Assembly: GCA_946542235.1 (NCBI GenBank)
Contig: CAMNKK010000003.1
Span: forward strand, 1-64,000
Source of the DNA: an uncultured Clostridia bacterium
Lineage (GTDB): Bacteria > Bacillota > Clostridia > Christensenellales > Aristaeellaceae
Reading direction: 5' to 3'
DNA length: 64,000 nucleotides
The notes beneath the pieces were generated by a model, which was not told the DNA's origin, did not search any database, and was given only the letters and a program-made list of their open reading frames with translations. The translations under genes were made by a program, and so were the position numbers. The number at the start of each line of letters is the position of its first letter. Position 1 is the stretch's first letter. This document shows positions 8,149 through 57,657 of this stretch, piece by piece.

Positions 8149-9242
8149 TTCGCCGCCTCCTTCCGCTTCCGCCGGAACAGATCCGGCAGCTCTCTCGTGC
8201 CCATGATGCCCTTCCGGAAGAACAGCACCACCACCATGATGATGATGGAGAACACCACCAGCCGGAAGCCGTTGCGCAGCAGCGGCACTTCGAAGTTTCC
8301 GATCATCTGCTTCTCATCCAGGAACCGCAGCCACCACTCGCTGGCCGCCACGAACAGGAAGGAGCTGAACACGCTGCCCGTTACCGAGCCCACGCCGCCG
8401 ATCACCACAATCAGCAGAATCTCATAGGTCATGGCGGTGGTAAAGAACTTCGCCTGCACCGTCGTCTGGTACATGGCCAGCATCGCGCCGCCGATGCCCG
8501 CAAAGAAGGAGGAAATGCAGAAGGCCAGCCGCTTGTGATGCGCCAGGTTGATGCCCATGGCCTCCGCCGCGATCTCGTCATCCCGGATGGACTTCAGCGC
8601 CCGGCCGTATCCGGAGTGGAGCAGCAGCACGATCAGCCCGATGCAGATCCCGGCAATCAGGAAGGGCACCAGCGTGGACAGATACAGGGTCACATTGCCC
8701 TCCGCGTCCCGGATGTTGAAGTCGTTGAAGCTGGGGAACATCCGCAGCATGTTGGCCCCGTTGGTGATGGGCCCCATGGGATCCCACTGTACAATGACGC
8801 GGATGATTTCCGCGAAGCCCAGGGTCGCGATCGCCAGATAGTCGCTCTTCAGCCGCAGCACCGGCAGACCGATCAGCAGCGCGAAGAACGCCGCGGCCAG
8901 CCCGGCCAGAATCAGGGCCACCGCCACCGGCACCGTGAACTGGATCAGCCCGCCCTCATAATACTGATAAACCACCGGCCGGCTTTCCACCGGGATGGTA
9001 AAGATTCCGTACACATAAGCCCCGATCAGCATGAAGCCGGCCTGGCCCAGGGAGAAAATCCCGGTGAAGCCGTTCAGCAGGTTCATGCTCACCGCCACCA
9101 GGGCGTAGGTGGCGCCCTTTTTCAGCACGGTAAAGAGCATGGAGGACGGGGGCAGAATCTGCTCCGCCGCGAATACCGCCGCATACACCGCCGCCACGAT
9201 CACCCAGGTCAGGACGGCGGGTTTTCTTGATTTCGTCTTCAT
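8145..9242 (-). CDS. livM: Branched-chain amino acid ABC transporter permease LivM
   Basis: MNLLNGFTGIFSLGQAGFMLIGAY, LRLKSDYLAIATLGFAEIIR. Confidence 0.94.
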   Translation of the reverse strand: MKTKSRKPAVLTWVIVAAVYAAVFAAEQILPPSSMLFTVLKKGATYALVAVSMNLLNGFTGIFSLGQAGFMLIGAYVYGIFTIPVESRPVVYQYYEGGLIQFTVPVAVALILAGLAAAFFALLIGLPVLRLKSDYLAIATLGFAEIIRVIVQWDPMGPITNGANMLRMFPSFNDFNIRDAEGNVTLYLSTLVPFLIAGICIGLIVLLLHSGYGRALKSIRDDEIAAEAMGINLAHHKRLAFCISSFFAGIGGAMLAMYQTTVQAKFFTTAMTYEILLIVVIGGVGSVTGSVFSSFLFVAASEWWLRFLDEKQMIGNFEVPLLRNGFRLVVFSIIIMVVVLFFRKGIMGTRELPDLFRRKRKEAAK

Positions 9243-9259
9243 GATTCGCTCCGCCTCCC

Positions 9260-10183
9260 TTACACCTTGTCCGTCGTTTTTTCACCGAAAAGGCCGGTGG
9301 GTTTGACAACCAGAATAATGATCAGCAGCGCGAAGGTGAAGGCATCGGAGAAAATGGCCAGACCCAGGGGTCTGCTGATGGCTCCGGCCTTGAAAAGGAT
9401 CACGTCCAGGCCCTTGATCAGATTCTCCATAATGCCGATGATAAACGCGCCGATCACCGCCCCGGGAATGGAGCCGATGCCGCCGAACACCGCCGCCACA
9501 AAGGCCTTCAGGCCGGGCATGGCGCCGGAGGTCTGGATCACCGTGGGATAGTTGGTGAAGTAAAGCACGCTGCCCACGCCCGCCAGGAAGGAGCCGATCA
9601 CGAAGGTCGTGGAGATGACGCTGTTGATCTTGATGCCCATCAGCTGCGCGGTTTCAAAGTCCTTGGAAACCGCCCGCATGGCCATGCCGATCTTGGTCCT
9701 GTTGATCAGCATCACCAGCCCGACCACCAGCAGGATCACCAGCACCGGCGTCACGATCGTCACGACCTTGGTGGTGGCGGAGCCGATTTTGACGGAGTCG
9801 GAGATCACCGGGATGGCCGGATACTGCTTGTTCAGGCCGCCGGTGATGTAGAGCACCAGGTTCTGCAGGGTGTAGCTGACCCCGATGGCGGAAATCATCA
9901 CGGACATCCGGGGCGCGGTGCGCAGCGGCTTATAGGCCACCCGCTCAATCACAAAGCCGACCAGCGCCGTAATGATCAGCACCAGCAGCACGGAAATCCA
10001 GACGGGCAGCCCGCTGGCGGCGATATAGACCATGATAATTCCTGCGACCATGAAAACATCGCCGTGGGCAAAGTTGATCAGGCGCAGGATGCCGTACACC
10101 ATGGTATATCCGATGGCGATCAGCGCGTACTGTCCGCCTACCGAAATACCGGAAAGCAGGTAGGGAAAAATGGTATCCCACAT
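9260..10183 (-). CDS. livH: Branched-chain amino acid ABC transporter permease LivH
   Basis: GGQYALIAIGYTMVYGILRLINFAHGDVFMVAG. Confidence 0.95.
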   Translation of the reverse strand: MWDTIFPYLLSGISVGGQYALIAIGYTMVYGILRLINFAHGDVFMVAGIIMVYIAASGLPVWISVLLVLIITALVGFVIERVAYKPLRTAPRMSVMISAIGVSYTLQNLVLYITGGLNKQYPAIPVISDSVKIGSATTKVVTIVTPVLVILLVVGLVMLINRTKIGMAMRAVSKDFETAQLMGIKINSVISTTFVIGSFLAGVGSVLYFTNYPTVIQTSGAMPGLKAFVAAVFGGIGSIPGAVIGAFIIGIMENLIKGLDVILFKAGAISRPLGLAIFSDAFTFALLIIILVVKPTGLFGEKTTDKV

Positions 10184-51194: not shown

Positions 51195-51341
51195 TTCCCT
51201 CACATGACGGGTTCGCCGCCTCTGCTCCGGGTGGCTTTTGAATAGATTGATGGGTTTTTCTCGTTATTCTGACAGATGTCACTCCTTTTCCTTTTCCTTT
51301 TCATGAGGAGAATTCTGCCATGGCGGAGGTGCATTGATTCA

Positions 51342-52241
51342 GTGGATCTTCAACTCAGGATTACACATTATTATCACAGCGGATTTTCCGTGGAAGCCGA
51401 TGATCTTCTTTTTGTCTTTGACTACTGGCGCGGCGAAAAGCAGGAGCTTCACGGGCGTCTTCAGATTATGCCGGAACAGCTTTCCAAATACCGGCATGTC
51501 TATGTTTTTATTTCTCATGAGCATATTGACCACCTGGATCCGGTGGTATTCACCTGGAAAGACAGTGCCAGCGTTACCTATATCGTTTCTTCCGACATGC
51601 CCGTGGGAACCCGCGGCAAGAGGATGGCTCCGGGGGATACCCTGGAGCTGGAGCCGCAGGTTTCCGTGACCGCTTTTGATTCCACTGACCTGGGGGTTTC
51701 CTTTCTCCTGAATATTCAGGGAAAAAAGATCTTTCACGCCGGAGATCTGAATTTCTGGCACTGGCGGGATGAATCTTCCCTGAAGGAGATCGAAGAGGCT
51801 GAAATGGAGTTTATCCGCGCTGTCAAACCCATCAGCAAGGAATCCGTCGACATTGCCTTTTTCCCGGTGGATCCCCGCCAGGGAACCATGTTCGAAGCAG
51901 GAGCCAATTACTTTATTCTTCAGGTGAAGCCCCGGCTGCTGATTCCCATGCACTATTTTCACAAAACGGAAATCATTCTTGAATATGCGAGGACTGCCAG
52001 CTCCCGGACAACGGAAGTTCTGGCCATGCCCGGAATCGGCGACAGTATTCTGGTTCAGTTTGATCAATCCGGTTTCATGAATATTTCCTTTCCCCGGGAT
52101 GAAAAAAATGATTCCGAAGAGATGGAAGAAACCCTGGAAGTCATTTCGGAAGATAATCCCTTTTCCGAATCAGATCTTCCTCTTTCCCAGCTTGTGGATA
52201 AGAACGACGCGGATTCTGACGGCGCTGATCCTTTGCCGTAA
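51342..52241 (+). CDS. MBL-fold metallo-hydrolase (UlaG-like)
   Basis: THYYHSGFSVEADDLLFVFDYW, VFISHEHIDHLDP, KKIFHAGDLNFWHW; start uncertain (GTG 51342 versus ATG 51276). Confidence 0.82.
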   Translation: MDLQLRITHYYHSGFSVEADDLLFVFDYWRGEKQELHGRLQIMPEQLSKYRHVYVFISHEHIDHLDPVVFTWKDSASVTYIVSSDMPVGTRGKRMAPGDTLELEPQVSVTAFDSTDLGVSFLLNIQGKKIFHAGDLNFWHWRDESSLKEIEEAEMEFIRAVKPISKESVDIAFFPVDPRQGTMFEAGANYFILQVKPRLLIPMHYFHKTEIILEYARTASSRTTEVLAMPGIGDSILVQFDQSGFMNISFPRDEKNDSEEMEETLEVISEDNPFSESDLPLSQLVDKNDADSDGADPLP

Positions 52242-52665
52242 AGGGTTTTCCCTCTTTTTGCACAGGTTTTCCACAGTCTGTTTCAGCTTATCCACAGTTT
52301 TGTACAAAACCCCGAAGGCCTTCAAATACAAGACCTTCGGGGTTTTACTTCTGAAGAATCACGGTTTTTCAATCGTTTCAAACTGTGGATAACTTTCTGG
52401 TTTGCTTTTTTATCGCTTTTGACAAAACTCTGATCAATTCTTTCAGCCTGGCCGATCCGGAAACGACCTTCCACTTTCCCGGAAAAAAGAAGCTCCCGAT
52501 TCATATCTTTATCCACAGTTCATCCACAGCCGGTGCAGAAAACTTGGAAACAAGCCATCCTGCCATGCTGTGGAAATCTCTGTACTTTTCCACAATTTTC
52601 TGTTGATTCATCCTTCAAACCGTTGATTTATAAGGTTTCTCGTCCTGTTAATAACTTGTGGATAA
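52193..52665. other. DnaA-box cluster A (candidate oriC subregion)
   Basis: Exact TTATCCACA/TGTGGATAA at 52193-52201, 52288-52296, 52384-52392, 52509-52517, 52657-52665, plus near-matches (TTTTCCACA 52267, TCATCCACA about 52519). Confidence 0.82.
52306..52346. terminator. Bidirectional terminator-like hairpin inside DnaA-box cluster A
   Basis: AAAACCCCGAAGG ... CCTTCGGGGTTTT, 13-bp perfect stem. Confidence 0.75.
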
Positions 52666-52776
52666 TTTTTGCCCTGTGACGCACATCTTCCATCGTCGTT
52701 CACCGGACCGTGCAGAACTGCCGCAGCCATCTTTTTTCCATCCCTCATCAGATCATCCCCTGTTTTTCGGCAGCTC

Positions 52777-52792
52777 TGTTTCACGTGAAACA
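52777..52792. other. parS site
   Basis: TGTTTCACGTGAAACA, perfect 16-bp palindrome matching the ParB/Spo0J parS consensus. Confidence 0.92.
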
Positions 52793-52804
52793 ATCAATTC
52801 GTTT

Positions 52805-53968
52805 TCAGGAAAAATCAGGTTCATGCAAAACCGGCGTTTTCATTTCCACTCCCGCTTTGGTCATCGTCATCTTTCCTTTTTCCTGGACGCTCTGTACCTG
52901 ATAGGTACGATAATTATGATAATCCGCAAGATCTCCTTCATCGGAACAGGTGATAAACGTCTGCACGCCTTCAATCATCTTCAGCAGATTCATTCTTCTG
53001 TCCAGATCCAGTTCACTTAATACATCATCCAGGAGCAGAACAGGATATTCTCCCGTAATATGCTGAAAAATGTCCATCTGCGCAAGCTTCAGGCTCAGCG
53101 CCGCCGTTCTCATCTGTCCCTGGGACGCATAGAGCTTCATGCTTTTATGATTCAGACTCAGAAGCAGATCATCCCGATGAGGTCCGACGGAAGCTGTTCC
53201 CTGCCGAAGATCGTCATCCCGGTTTTTCTCCAGCAGCTTTTCCATCGACTCCGTCTCATCATCCCATGAATAGGAAGGATGATAAGCAATCGAAAGGTTT
53301 TCCGTTTCCCGTCCGCTGATCTTCCGGTATATTTCATTTCCCTTTTCGGATATCAGATCGGTTATTTTTTTTCTTTCCCGATAAATCGCCTGTCCGTATT
53401 CAGCCATTTCCTTTTCAAAATCCGCAATCATGGAATCCGGTCTTCTGTTTTCAAGCCTGGCCTGTCTTAATATGGCGTTTCTCTGATTATAGGCAATCCT
53501 GTACTGCTGAAGGGCAATAAAATAGGACCGGCTGATCTGACTGATCATCATATCAAGAAACTTTCTGCGGACAGCAGGCCCTTCCTTGATCAGATTCAGA
53601 TCCTCCGGACTGAATATCACGCATCGAAGAATTCCCATCATCTCGGACAGCCGTCCGATTTTCTTCTGATTGATCCATACGGTCTTCACCGTTTCAACGC
53701 CGGGCTGCAGCCGTATCTCAATTTCATTCTTCACGGAGCTGCCTTTGATTGTCAGGCTGCAGGAGGCTCCCTTTTTTCCGATCATCACCGCATTCTGGTC
53801 CTGAGAAATCCGATGGCTTTTTCCGAGAGAACAGTAATGAACCGCTTCCAGCAGATTTGTTTTTCCAGATCCGTTCTTTCCGAAAAATATATTGATTCCC
53901 TCATGAGGTTGCAGGAACAGTTCCTCATAGTTTCTGAAGTAATGTAAACTGATCTTCTCAATGATCAT
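52805..53968 (-). CDS. recF: DNA replication and repair protein RecF
   Basis: MIIEKISLHYFRNYEELFLQPHEGINIFFGKNGSGKTNLLEAVHYCSLGKSHR; LLLDDVLSELDLDRR. Confidence 0.95.
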   Translation of the reverse strand: MIIEKISLHYFRNYEELFLQPHEGINIFFGKNGSGKTNLLEAVHYCSLGKSHRISQDQNAVMIGKKGASCSLTIKGSSVKNEIEIRLQPGVETVKTVWINQKKIGRLSEMMGILRCVIFSPEDLNLIKEGPAVRRKFLDMMISQISRSYFIALQQYRIAYNQRNAILRQARLENRRPDSMIADFEKEMAEYGQAIYRERKKITDLISEKGNEIYRKISGRETENLSIAYHPSYSWDDETESMEKLLEKNRDDDLRQGTASVGPHRDDLLLSLNHKSMKLYASQGQMRTAALSLKLAQMDIFQHITGEYPVLLLDDVLSELDLDRRMNLLKMIEGVQTFITCSDEGDLADYHNYRTYQVQSVQEKGKMTMTKAGVEMKTPVLHEPDFS

Positions 53969-54039
53969 TCGGCACCTCATCAAGAAAAGCAGCGCGGCTG
54001 AACTCAGTACGCGCTGCATGATGCAAACTGATAATCGGA

Positions 54040-55158
54040 TTACTGGAAAACACGAACCGGCAGAATCAGATAAATATATTCTTCACCGGAAGGCGGCATG
54101 ACGACGCAGGGGCTTACGCTGCTGTTGAAATTCATGTACAGCTCTTCTCCCTCCACATTCCGGATCACATCAACGATATATCTGGAATTGAAGGCGATAT
54201 CGATGGGATCTCCGATCAGATCCGCTTCCATCTCTTCTTCCACGTCCCCCAGTTCCGCATTGGAGGTAACCCGCAGAGTGTTTTCATGAAAACTCATTTT
54301 GATCAGATTGTTTTTTCCTTCCCGGGCCATCAGGCTTGCCCGGTCGATCGCGTCCGATACTTCGCTTCTCTTCGCTTTTGCGCGGGTTTTGAATTCACTC
54401 GGAAGAATTCTTCTGTAGTCGATATATTCTCCGGCCAGCAGCACGGAACTCAGCCTGATATTTCCGAATGTACACTGCATTCTTCCCTGATCGAAAATCA
54501 GGCTGCAGAATGCCTCATCATCCGGAAGAATACGGCTCAATTCGTTAATCACCTTTCCGGGAATAATGGCCTTCACAATTTCCTTGTCTTCCGGAAGTTC
54601 AAAAGGCTGGAAAATCTTCTGCATGGCAAGGCGGAATCCATCCAGCGCCACCAGTCTGGCTTCGCTGCGGCTCACTTCGAGCAGGCATCCCGTCAGGATC
54701 TGCCTGTTTTCATCGGTAGCGATCGCAAAACTGACATGAGAAATCATTTCCTTCAGTTTTTTCTGAGGAATTTTGATCGGAAAACGATTTTTGACTCCCA
54801 TGATTTCGGGATACTCCGCAGCATTCATGATCGCCAGATTGCTTTTTGCCCGCTGGCAGCGGACAGAAGCTGTCCTGCTGTTTGCCGTCAGAGAAATTTC
54901 AACCTCTCCGCCGGGCATTTTTCTGATCAGCTCGGAAAACAGCCTGCCCGGCAGCACAGTCTGTCCTTCCTCAACTACATCCGCCACGTTCGTATATTCA
55001 ATGGAAAGGGATCCATCCGAACAGGTCAGATTAATCCTGTTATCCTCCGCTACGATCAGCACTCCATCCAGAATCTGTTTGGCCGGTCTGGCTGACAAAG
55101 CTCTGGTAACTGTGTTGAGACCTTCCAGCAGATCCTGATTGTTCATCCGAAATTTCAT
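54040..55158 (-). CDS. dnaN: DNA polymerase III beta sliding clamp
   Basis: MKFRMNNQDLLEGLNTVTRALSARPAKQILDGVLIVAEDN...; full clamp length, adjacent to recF. Confidence 0.95.
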   Translation of the reverse strand: MKFRMNNQDLLEGLNTVTRALSARPAKQILDGVLIVAEDNRINLTCSDGSLSIEYTNVADVVEEGQTVLPGRLFSELIRKMPGGEVEISLTANSRTASVRCQRAKSNLAIMNAAEYPEIMGVKNRFPIKIPQKKLKEMISHVSFAIATDENRQILTGCLLEVSRSEARLVALDGFRLAMQKIFQPFELPEDKEIVKAIIPGKVINELSRILPDDEAFCSLIFDQGRMQCTFGNIRLSSVLLAGEYIDYRRILPSEFKTRAKAKRSEVSDAIDRASLMAREGKNNLIKMSFHENTLRVTSNAELGDVEEEMEADLIGDPIDIAFNSRYIVDVIRNVEGEELYMNFNSSVSPCVVMPPSGEEYIYLILPVRVFQ

Positions 55159-55253
55159 ATAACTGCTTCATCCTTTCGAAGGCCCCGTCTCCTGAGAGAG
55201 GACCATTATAATAAATAATACTAATCAGTCATCGTAATAGGCACTGTGAAATC

Positions 55254-55494
55254 TGTGCATAACCCGCGAAAACAAGGTAACACCACTGTTCTGCCGGTGA
55301 AAAACCTGTGCATAATTCTTCGAATTATCAACAGTTTTCCCGTATCTATTCCCTGTTCTTCAGGAAAAATCCTTTTTTTTCCTTTCCGGAGGAAAAGAAA
55401 AAAGGAGAAAATGTTACACGTGAAACATTTTGGAAACAAGTTTTTCCCCGAAATCACAGATTTCACAGGGATGTGGATAACAGGGTGTGGATAA
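55254..55494. other. DnaA-box cluster B (upstream of dnaN)
   Basis: Exact TTATNCACA-consensus boxes at 55254-55262 and 55307-55315 (TGTGCATAA), 55472-55480 and 55486-55494 (TGTGGATAA); near-match TTATCAACA 55325-55333. Confidence 0.8.
55412..55427. other. parS site
   Basis: TGTTACACGTGAAACA, fits TGTTNCACGTGAAACA. Confidence 0.9.
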
Positions 55495-56022
55495 TTACTT
55501 CAGCAGATTCAGGTTTCGAATGAAGTAATCACATCCGCTCCAGAGGGTAATCAGGCATACCCAGATTCCAAGAATGATTCCCGCAGGAAAGGAAAACAGG
55601 GGGATCCGCAAAATCAGAAGAAGAAGGATCATGATCATCTGGCTCACGGTTTTCAGTTTTCCCAGAGGTCCGGCAGCAATGACACAGCCTCTGGAAATGG
55701 CGACGAGACGAAGCCCGTCTACGCTCAGCTCTCTGGTCAGAATCAAAATTCCCGTCCAGGCCGGAATCAGCTGCAGGGAGATCAGCATGATCAGCGTGGA
55801 AAGTACAAGCAGCTTATCCGCAACCGGATCAATGAACTTTCCGAAAACGGTAATCCACTGTTTTTTTCTGGCCAGATATCCGTCCAGAAAATCCGTCAGG
55901 GAAGCCACCGCAAAGAGCGCAACCGCGGCCCATCTGCACCAGGGTGCGGACAGGGAAAGCAGCAAAACCAGCACCGGAACACACAGAACCCGGAGAATAC
56001 TCAGACGATTCGGCCAGTTCAT
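55495..56022 (-). CDS. pgsA: CDP-diacylglycerol--glycerol-3-phosphate 3-phosphatidyltransferase
   Basis: MNWPNRLSILRVLCVPVLVLLL; SLTDFLDGYLARKKQWITVFGKFIDPVADKLL (CDP-alcohol phosphotransferase motif). Confidence 0.94.
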   Translation of the reverse strand: MNWPNRLSILRVLCVPVLVLLLSLSAPWCRWAAVALFAVASLTDFLDGYLARKKQWITVFGKFIDPVADKLLVLSTLIMLISLQLIPAWTGILILTRELSVDGLRLVAISRGCVIAAGPLGKLKTVSQMIMILLLLILRIPLFSFPAGIILGIWVCLITLWSGCDYFIRNLNLLK

Positions 56023-57335
56023 ATCATTTCTCCTGTCAAATCATAGGTTTTCGCGTCTGTAATACGAACCTGCACGAAGGAACCGATGTCCGGTTTACGG
56101 GATCCGCAGGTGAAAAGAATTTCTCCGTCGGTTTCGGGAGCCTCGGTTCTGCTTCTTCCCAGAGCCATCCCGTCTTCATTCAGGTCGGTGACCAGGACGG
56201 TTTCGACGGATCCGATTCTCTTTCTGTTGTTTTTCAGGGAAATCCGGCTCTGCAGGGTCATCAGGCGATCCAGCCGTTCCTGCTTGATTTCTTCAGAAAT
56301 CTGATCCTTCATCCTGGCTGCGGGCGTATTTTCCTCAGGGGAATAGGCAAAGGCTCCCAGCCGGTCGAATTCCGCTTCCTCAACGAAATCAAGCAGCTCC
56401 TGGAACTGCTCCTCTGTTTCTCCCGGAAAACCCGTGATCAGGGTGGTCCGAAGCGTCAGTCCTCTGGCTTTTGCACCCCTTACGCAGCGAAGGATATCCT
56501 CCCGGGTTCCGCGCCGATGCATTCTTTTCAGAATGTCGGAGTTAATGTGCTGAATCGGGATATCCAGATAGGGACATATATTCGGAGTGCCGGCCATCAG
56601 ATCCAGCAGTTCGTCGTTGGTTTCATCGGGGTAGCAGTAAAGAACCCGAAGCCAGTCTACCCCGGGAATATCCGCGATTTTTTTCATCAGGGAGGGAAGG
56701 AGCGTATGCCCCCCCTCATCCGTGCCCCACCGGGTGGTATCCTGGGCGACCAGAATATGTTCCCTTACACCGCGGGAAGCAAAGCTGCGGACTTCATCGA
56801 GAATGTTTTTTTCCCCGCGGCTGCGGTAGGGACCCCGAATCATGGGAATGGCACAGAAGGTGCACCGGTTGGAGCATCCTTCCCCGATTCGGATATAGGC
56901 GGAGTAGAAGGGAGTGGTCAGAACTCTGTCATGCTCATAATAGCTGAAATCATCCTGGCAGGAATGCAGGGCGGATCCATGCAGGGCTTTTTCGATCCGA
57001 TCCGGAAGGGAAGCATACTGATTCACACCCAGCATCAGATCAATCTCAGGCAGTTCCTGAAGCAGCTCCTTTTCATATCGCTGAATCAGGCAGCCCGTGA
57101 CAACAAGCAGCCTGCATCTGCCGGAAGTTTTGTATTCAGCCATTTCCAGAATGGTATTGATGGATTCCTCTTTGGCCGGATCAATAAAACCGCAGGTATT
57201 GATCATGATAATATCCGCGTCAGCCGGATCGGAAACAATGCGGAAACCCCTTTCCTTCAGAAGACCCAGAGCGGTTTCGGTATCCACCCGGTTTTTATTG
57301 CATCCCAGAGAAACGGCGCCGACAGAATACGCCAT
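56019..57335 (-). CDS. rimO: Ribosomal protein S12 methylthiotransferase RimO
   Basis: VSLGCNKNRVDTE, EGCSNRCTFCAIPMIRG radical SAM motif, C-terminal TRAM region. Confidence 0.95.
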   Translation of the reverse strand: MAYSVGAVSLGCNKNRVDTETALGLLKERGFRIVSDPADADIIMINTCGFIDPAKEESINTILEMAEYKTSGRCRLLVVTGCLIQRYEKELLQELPEIDLMLGVNQYASLPDRIEKALHGSALHSCQDDFSYYEHDRVLTTPFYSAYIRIGEGCSNRCTFCAIPMIRGPYRSRGEKNILDEVRSFASRGVREHILVAQDTTRWGTDEGGHTLLPSLMKKIADIPGVDWLRVLYCYPDETNDELLDLMAGTPNICPYLDIPIQHINSDILKRMHRRGTREDILRCVRGAKARGLTLRTTLITGFPGETEEQFQELLDFVEEAEFDRLGAFAYSPEENTPAARMKDQISEEIKQERLDRLMTLQSRISLKNNRKRIGSVETVLVTDLNEDGMALGRSRTEAPETDGEILFTCGSRKPDIGSFVQVRITDAKTYDLTGEMI

Positions 57336-57657
57336 AAAGCTTTCTTCCTCCTTCATAAGATGGAAGAAAGTATATCATGAATTGACACCTTTGAAAAGTT
57401 TTCTTTTAGTCCTCTTTCGGGTCTTTCCGATCTGGGCCGGGCTGTCCGGAGAGCCGGGGAAAAGGGAAAGACGGAGATGAAACGCAAAACGCGGGACATC
57501 GGGGAAATCGGATTCCAGCAGAGCTCCTTGTTGAAACTTGTCCGAAAGAGGAGTATGATGGAACGGAAACGGCAGCGTGTGATTGTGAAAAGGCATTCCG
57601 ATTTCCGGTTTTCGGGAACGGTCCGGAAAACAGGAACAGATGAAGGAGGAAGATAGG

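Follow-up and report, generated by a model that had tools for sequence, protein, structure and literature searches.

Gene content and features of the locus

The window (the whole 64-kb stretch of DNA analysed) carries a locus with the gene order rimO-pgsA-dnaN-recF-gap-MBL (Table 1). The MBL-fold hydrolase gene (+, ending at 52241) and recF (-, ending at 52805) converge on an intergenic gap of 563 bp (52242-52804), in agreement with the preliminary description, which gave about 560 bp. That description had also placed four exact DnaA boxes with several near-boxes, a strong two-way hairpin at 52306-52346 and a parS at the recF edge in this gap, and all of these were recovered. The exact TTATCCACA boxes lie at 52288 (+), 52384 (-), 52509 (+) and 52657 (-), with three one-mismatch boxes at 52267, 52520 and 52586. 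Strong folding was computed for both strands of the hairpin (-22.8 kcal/mol, z -4.3 on the plus strand; -29.5 kcal/mol, z -5.9 on the minus strand), and the parS at 52777-52792 is an exact copy.

Across the window TTATNCACA occurs nine times against 0.62 expected, a count reached by none of 100 shuffles. All nine occurrences fall in two clusters (52193-52665 and 55254-55494) separated by recF and dnaN, and the same division is seen in relatives. The 2.19-Mb assembly holds 14 exact copies of TTATCCACA, half of them (7/14) at this locus; the remainder are three copies upstream of dnaA on another contig and four singletons. No dnaA gene is present in the dnaN-recF neighbourhood; it was found on contig C57.

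Table 1 Features of the dnaN-recF locus in the window (site offsets are in the addA direction).
Feature	Position	Strand	Remarks
MBL-fold hydrolase	51276..52241	+	converges on recF; module C at its 3' end
Exact DnaA box	52193..52201	-	in 3' end of MBL gene
Module C (array C)	52256..52392	-	DnaA boxes at offsets 0, 96, 117, 128 around hairpin
Module C site	52256-52264	+	TTTTGCACA
Module C site	52267-52275	+	
Module C site	52288-52296	+	
Module C site	52384-52392	-	
Hairpin	52306..52346	.	bidirectional, terminator-like; perfect stem of 13 bp, longer on - strand; flanked by T-runs on either side
Module B (array B)	52509..52665	-	six-site DnaA array; frame-broken remnant of addA codons ~866-918 (tblastn, offset scan, alignment)
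Module B site, offset 148	52509-52517	+	TTATCCACA
Module B site, offset 137	52520-52528	+	TCATCCACA
Module B site, offset 88	52569-52577	-	ATTTCCACA
Module B site, offset 71	52586-52594	+	TTTTCCACA
Module B site, offset 11	52646-52654	-	TTATTAACA
Module B site, offset 0	52657-52665	-	TTATCCACA
parS	52777..52792	.	exact TGTTTCACGTGAAACA, 12 bp past recF stop
recF	52805..54019	-	Pfam SMC_N/AAA_23
dnaN	54040..55158	-	Pfam DNA_pol3_beta 1-3
Module A	55159..55494	-	pgsA-dnaN gap, probable unwinding half
Predicted DUE	55202..55241	-	CTA TTA CGA TGA triplets from 55240 downward; within least stable 40-mer of rimO-MBL stretch
Module A weak site	55245-55253	-	abuts box
Module A box	55254-55262	-	
Module A box	55307-55315	-	
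Module A box	55325-55333	+	
parS-like site	55412..55427	.	one mismatch
Module A box	55472-55480	-	
Module A box	55486-55494	-	
pgsA-like CDP-alcohol phosphatidyltransferase	55495..56022	-	
rimO-like radical SAM/TRAM protein	56019..57356	-	

The six-site array is a remnant of addA

Array B spans 157 bp, is nearly two-fold symmetric and carries its six sites at offsets 0(+), 11(+), 71(-), 88(+), 137(-) and 148(-) in the addA direction, the same in the window and in relatives. In two of these relatives ('Clostridia bacterium' from roe deer omasum; L005, L006) recF is followed by a UvrD-helicase/PD-(D/E)XK protein of ~1150 residues, which is taken to be AddA, judged from its domains. The addA of the relatives contains six DnaA boxes at fixed offsets within codons ~866-918. 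A tblastn search with the relatives' AddA aligned residues 867-919 to positions 52507-52665 of the window (58% identity over 53 aa), and a genome search with AddA returned the same place (55% identity, interrupted in frame by one TGA and one TAA). Scanning for the array's offsets gave a score of 48/54 here, compared with a shuffled maximum of 31. The rest of this type-1 addA was not detectable in the window.

The source genome (G000) encodes a second AddA, 34% identical, on contig C84 (893-4402, L128). This type-2 gene was rejected as a carrier of the array, since it has no box cluster. The second type (~34% identical; also L163 and L164) is common in genomes without a recF-linked addA, as if one type had displaced the other, and parts of both types are present in G160.

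The array persists after addA is lost

A full or near-full type-1 addA was found in 27 of 45 genomes of the genus, and recF without it in ten (G000, G166, G180, G183, G179, G188, G171, G153, G175 and G159), of which G183 has kept a longer addA fragment (residues 841-1030). Faulty assembly was rejected as the cause, given that recF and MBL lie on one contig in nine of these ten genomes, which are separate assemblies. On a tree of rimO, dnaN, recF and MBL from 25 genomes of the genus and three outgroups, built by a quick method with SH-aLRT support only, the presence of addA requires six changes, each forced by well-supported branches. Since the outgroups carry addA, most of these changes are losses, and addA appears to have been lost independently about six times here.

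Seven of these ten genomes have kept array B whole: its score there is 45-51 of 54, against ~30 for the next-best place and no more than 31 in 1000 shuffled gaps. In G159, G171 and G153 half of it has eroded away, and G186, whose locus is partial, lacks it at the expected place. Pairwise identity is 86% for boxes and 63% for spacers among addA-bearing genomes, and 84% and 49%, respectively, among addA-less ones. When addA-less genomes are compared with their near relatives, the boxes are more conserved than the spacers (Fisher p 6e-4 to 2e-6 per pair, the pairs not being fully independent). That the DnaA sites were kept in several lineages from which addA has gone suggests that they matter on their own account.

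Selection on the boxes can also be read from addA itself. Of the 27 addA genes found in the genus, the 24 that remained once near-duplicates had been removed were analysed in 20-codon windows, and the excess of identical synonymous codons peaks at the array (z 5.7), with a second peak at the array's other half (z 4.1). Codon-shuffled addA contains 0.7-1.9 boxes on average versus 3-7 observed, by which the boxes were rejected as a mere by-product of the AddA protein sequence; the exceptions are the addA of L149 and L156, which did not exceed their own highest shuffle. These comparisons of sequence show array B to be the box-bearing piece of an otherwise deleted addA, evidently kept by selection after repeated loss of the gene.

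The array has a narrow distribution. A three-box pattern with its spacing, allowing up to three mismatches, was sought in 396 genomes of the order and was present in ten, from only two genera, including all eight same-genus genomes of the draw; the backwards control gave none. Most matches occur on both strands because the array is nearly two-fold symmetric. In a family-wide search the exact three-box pattern occurred in three genomes only, all of one genus.

Array C, the hairpin and parS

Array C consists of a plus box followed by minus boxes at +96, +117 and +128, with the hairpin enclosed. These offsets recur genus-wide to within a base (for example 14383/14479/14500/14511 in G026 and 9953/10050/10070/10081 in G188), some genomes being without some of the boxes. 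The MBL gene is inverted relative to recF in G179, G153, G171 and G159 (loci L193, L195, L196, L198), and boxes of the array C type are still found at its 3' end. L195, L196 and L198 combine a half-eroded array B with a box-poor module A, and the gap of the last two contains a 494-aa ORF. G188 has arrays B and C both intact, with a 394-aa ORF between them (L194, about 8200-9950) that resembles a transposase, by eye of the IS66 type.

The hairpin has the features by which an intrinsic terminator is predicted, namely a GC-rich stem-loop, a T-run and a conserved structure, with compensatory changes at 8 of 10 consensus pairs across 12 genomes. It resembles a bidirectional intrinsic terminator in its T-runs on both sides and its place between MBL and recF/addA, but differs in standing at near-constant spacing among DnaA boxes. 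The data support its being a conserved structure within a fixed frame of DnaA boxes. A 15-bp dyad, CCTTNNNAAATAAGG, occurs ~10 bp after a plus DnaA box in arrays B and C of relatives (e.g. L200 at 11630, 12518 and 12559); its background rate is five matches at ≤3 mismatches in 300 kb. It may be bound by another protein or form a structure.

The TGTTTCACGTGAAACA site is the sole exact 16-bp parS copy in the 86%-complete assembly, a parS is found beside the end of recF in most relatives, and its position here is that of a predicted origin-proximal parS. In 9 of 14 intact loci (L088, L089, L090, L200, L201, L202, L206, L207, L208) the addA gene itself contains an exact parS, always at nucleotide 724 of the coding sequence, and in a tenth (L204) it is at nucleotide 730. 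Thus addA bears a predicted partition site besides its DnaA sites.

GC skew and the predicted unwinding site

In two near-complete genomes of the same genus dnaA lies far from recF, at 1.21 Mb in G091 and 1.29 Mb in G132. The GC skew of G091, taken from twenty 15-kb samples and the recF locus, is ≤0 between 0.16 and 1.595 Mb and positive between 1.740 and 3.0 Mb. The skew turns between 1.595 and 1.740 Mb, around recF (1.672 Mb, within the switch), which places the origin near the dnaN-recF locus. The locus of dnaA itself was rejected as the origin, as at 0.458 Mb it sits inside the negative-skew arm. On the window's contig the cumulative skew has its minimum at 56529, and the inflection in GC skew that marks a chromosome origin is found at the locus. 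The preliminary description had taken the gap for oriC; its assignment of the region to the chromosome origin stands, given that the relative's skew turns here and not at dnaA, but the gap as the origin proper, or as the holder of the DUE, is not supported.

Coding-strand skew at four-fold sites, pooled over the genus, rises from -0.03 (rimO) through 0.08 (pgsA), 0.15 (dnaN) and 0.21 (recF) to 0.31 (addA), the G091 references being +0.13 (leading genes) and -0.20 (lagging genes). This transition indicates the pgsA-dnaN side. The skew of MBL and PDE is about zero, a poor fit in that the expected lagging-strand skew is missing.

Alignment of 24 pgsA-dnaN gaps revealed a conserved box with a second CACA site directly next to it, followed by a short spacer, CTA-NNA-CNA-NNA-CGA triplets, AT-rich DNA and dnaN. 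In module A of the window this reads, on the minus strand from 55262, TTATGCACA-GATTTCACA-GTGC-CTA-TTA-CGA-TGA, in which the first two of the four triplets are canonical (CTA TTA) and are followed by CGA TGA. Duplex stability was computed along the rimO-MBL stretch of 22 genomes: in 17 of them the 40-mer of lowest stability begins 56-130 bp upstream of dnaN, and arrays B and C are more stable than module A in most. The skew turn, the least stable DNA and the box pair with its triplets and AT-rich DNA all place the unwinding site in the pgsA-dnaN gap as its likely position, ~2.6 kb from the array gap, or ~5 kb where addA is present. The reading of the MBL-recF gap as a DUE-bearing origin was rejected on these three features, which lie ~2.5 kb away from it.

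A probable split origin and its alternatives

Arrays B and C are very probably selected DnaA sites that belong to the origin. On balance, we favour the reading of a split chromosome origin, with dnaN-recF(-addA) as the spacer and the MBL-recF gap as the distal half, to which DnaA would bind. DnaA would load on arrays B and C and on the box cluster of module A, and the two complexes would meet with dnaN-recF(-addA) looped out, as has been proposed for bipartite origins. DnaA would thereby be driven onto the triplet element and the AT-rich DNA beside dnaN, where the duplex would open. The hairpin of array C would block MBL and recF/addA transcripts from traversing the arrays. There is about an even chance that the 157-bp six-site array is a distinct origin element, held in the addA frame across two genera and freed as non-coding DNA by repeated gene loss, and that it enhances or controls initiation at a split origin that dnaA has left. 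Several observations count against a split origin: the distance from module A to array B varies roughly twofold; the separation of 2.6-5 kb is longer than the described bipartite origins, which reach ~2 kb (PMC4285127); array B is eroded or missing in the four genomes named above; the MBL/PDE skew is a misfit; and module A has only two canonical trios.

Like E. coli datA and DARS and the DnaA-box clusters of B. subtilis, the arrays are compact, multi-box and of fixed spacing, and in principle able to bind or titrate DnaA. Sites of the datA/DARS type are DnaA arrays with IHF/Fis sites that alter the nucleotide state of DnaA. The arrays might form an origin-proximal site for DnaA titration or control of the DnaA nucleotide state that is not needed for unwinding, which would suit arrays that themselves have neither triplets nor markedly unstable DNA, and whose distance from the unwinding site varies about twofold while the array is retained. 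Yet in every genome where both could be read only a few kb separate the arrays from the unwinding gap, and they lie on its dnaN side, an adjacency to the origin that sites of the datA kind do not need, and we regard this explanation as possible but rather unlikely. Much less probable is that the gap is by itself a whole oriC, DUE included, which the terminator insulates: its box density, parS and hairpin are real, but the least stable DNA, the triplets and the skew transition are in the pgsA-dnaN gap, and array B is intragenic in most relatives. Least credible of all is that array B is a neutral pseudogene remnant awaiting decay. Its homology to addA and broken frame are what such a remnant would have; seven addA-less genomes from several loss events nevertheless keep the same six sites, with little or nothing left of the other ~1,100 addA codons and the spacers diverged, and synonymous sites are constrained at the array within intact addA.

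Relation to known origins

Two-part origins with a DUE in one half are established for B. subtilis, H. pylori and C. difficile (PMC4285127, PMC7561715); bipartite origins usually, not obligatorily, have dnaA as the spacer and reach ~2 kb in length (PMC4285127). The putative split origin described here shares with them two DnaA-box clusters that flank a block of genes, one cluster holding, by computed stability, the predicted DUE together with triplets. As in C. difficile, the DUE half adjoins dnaN, and the dnaA-dnaN element of that species resembles module A (PMC7561715). It differs from them in that the spacer is dnaN-recF(-addA) and not dnaA, which is unlinked (on another contig here and >1.2 Mb from recF in G091 and G132), in that the distal cluster is part of a coding sequence or descended from one, and in the separation of 2.6-5 kb. 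Module A is also comparable to the basal unwinding system (BUS), defined as a DnaA-box, a spacer of ≤16 bp and at least three DnaA-trios with a middle adenine (PMC8287927). It has the abutting box pair, the short spacer, CTA-type triplets and AT-rich DNA beside dnaN, but only two canonical trios before CGA-type ones, and it lies outside the 52242-52804 gap.

Bipartite origins as such are already known, and what differs here is the dnaA-free spacer and the addA-borne distal half. Within the partial coverage of our literature search we found no report of DnaA boxes inside addA, none on point of a dnaA-free clostridial origin, and none of a split origin without dnaA whose distal half lies in addA codons and outlives the loss of that gene. 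Why origins are split, and how much the distance between the halves weighs, have been described as open questions (PMC4285127). This genus offers natural replicates for both, with the same two halves and a spacer of ~2.6 kb or ~5 kb according to the absence or presence of addA. The repeated loss of the host gene with the array kept is evolutionary evidence that points to a function of the DnaA array, a putative replication element written in the codons of the repair gene addA. Origin finding keyed to dnaA-adjacent intergenic DNA would misplace the origin of this genus. The unlinked dnaA itself has three exact DnaA boxes within 165 bp upstream (L002; 1033, 1109 and 1124), which are possibly autoregulatory.
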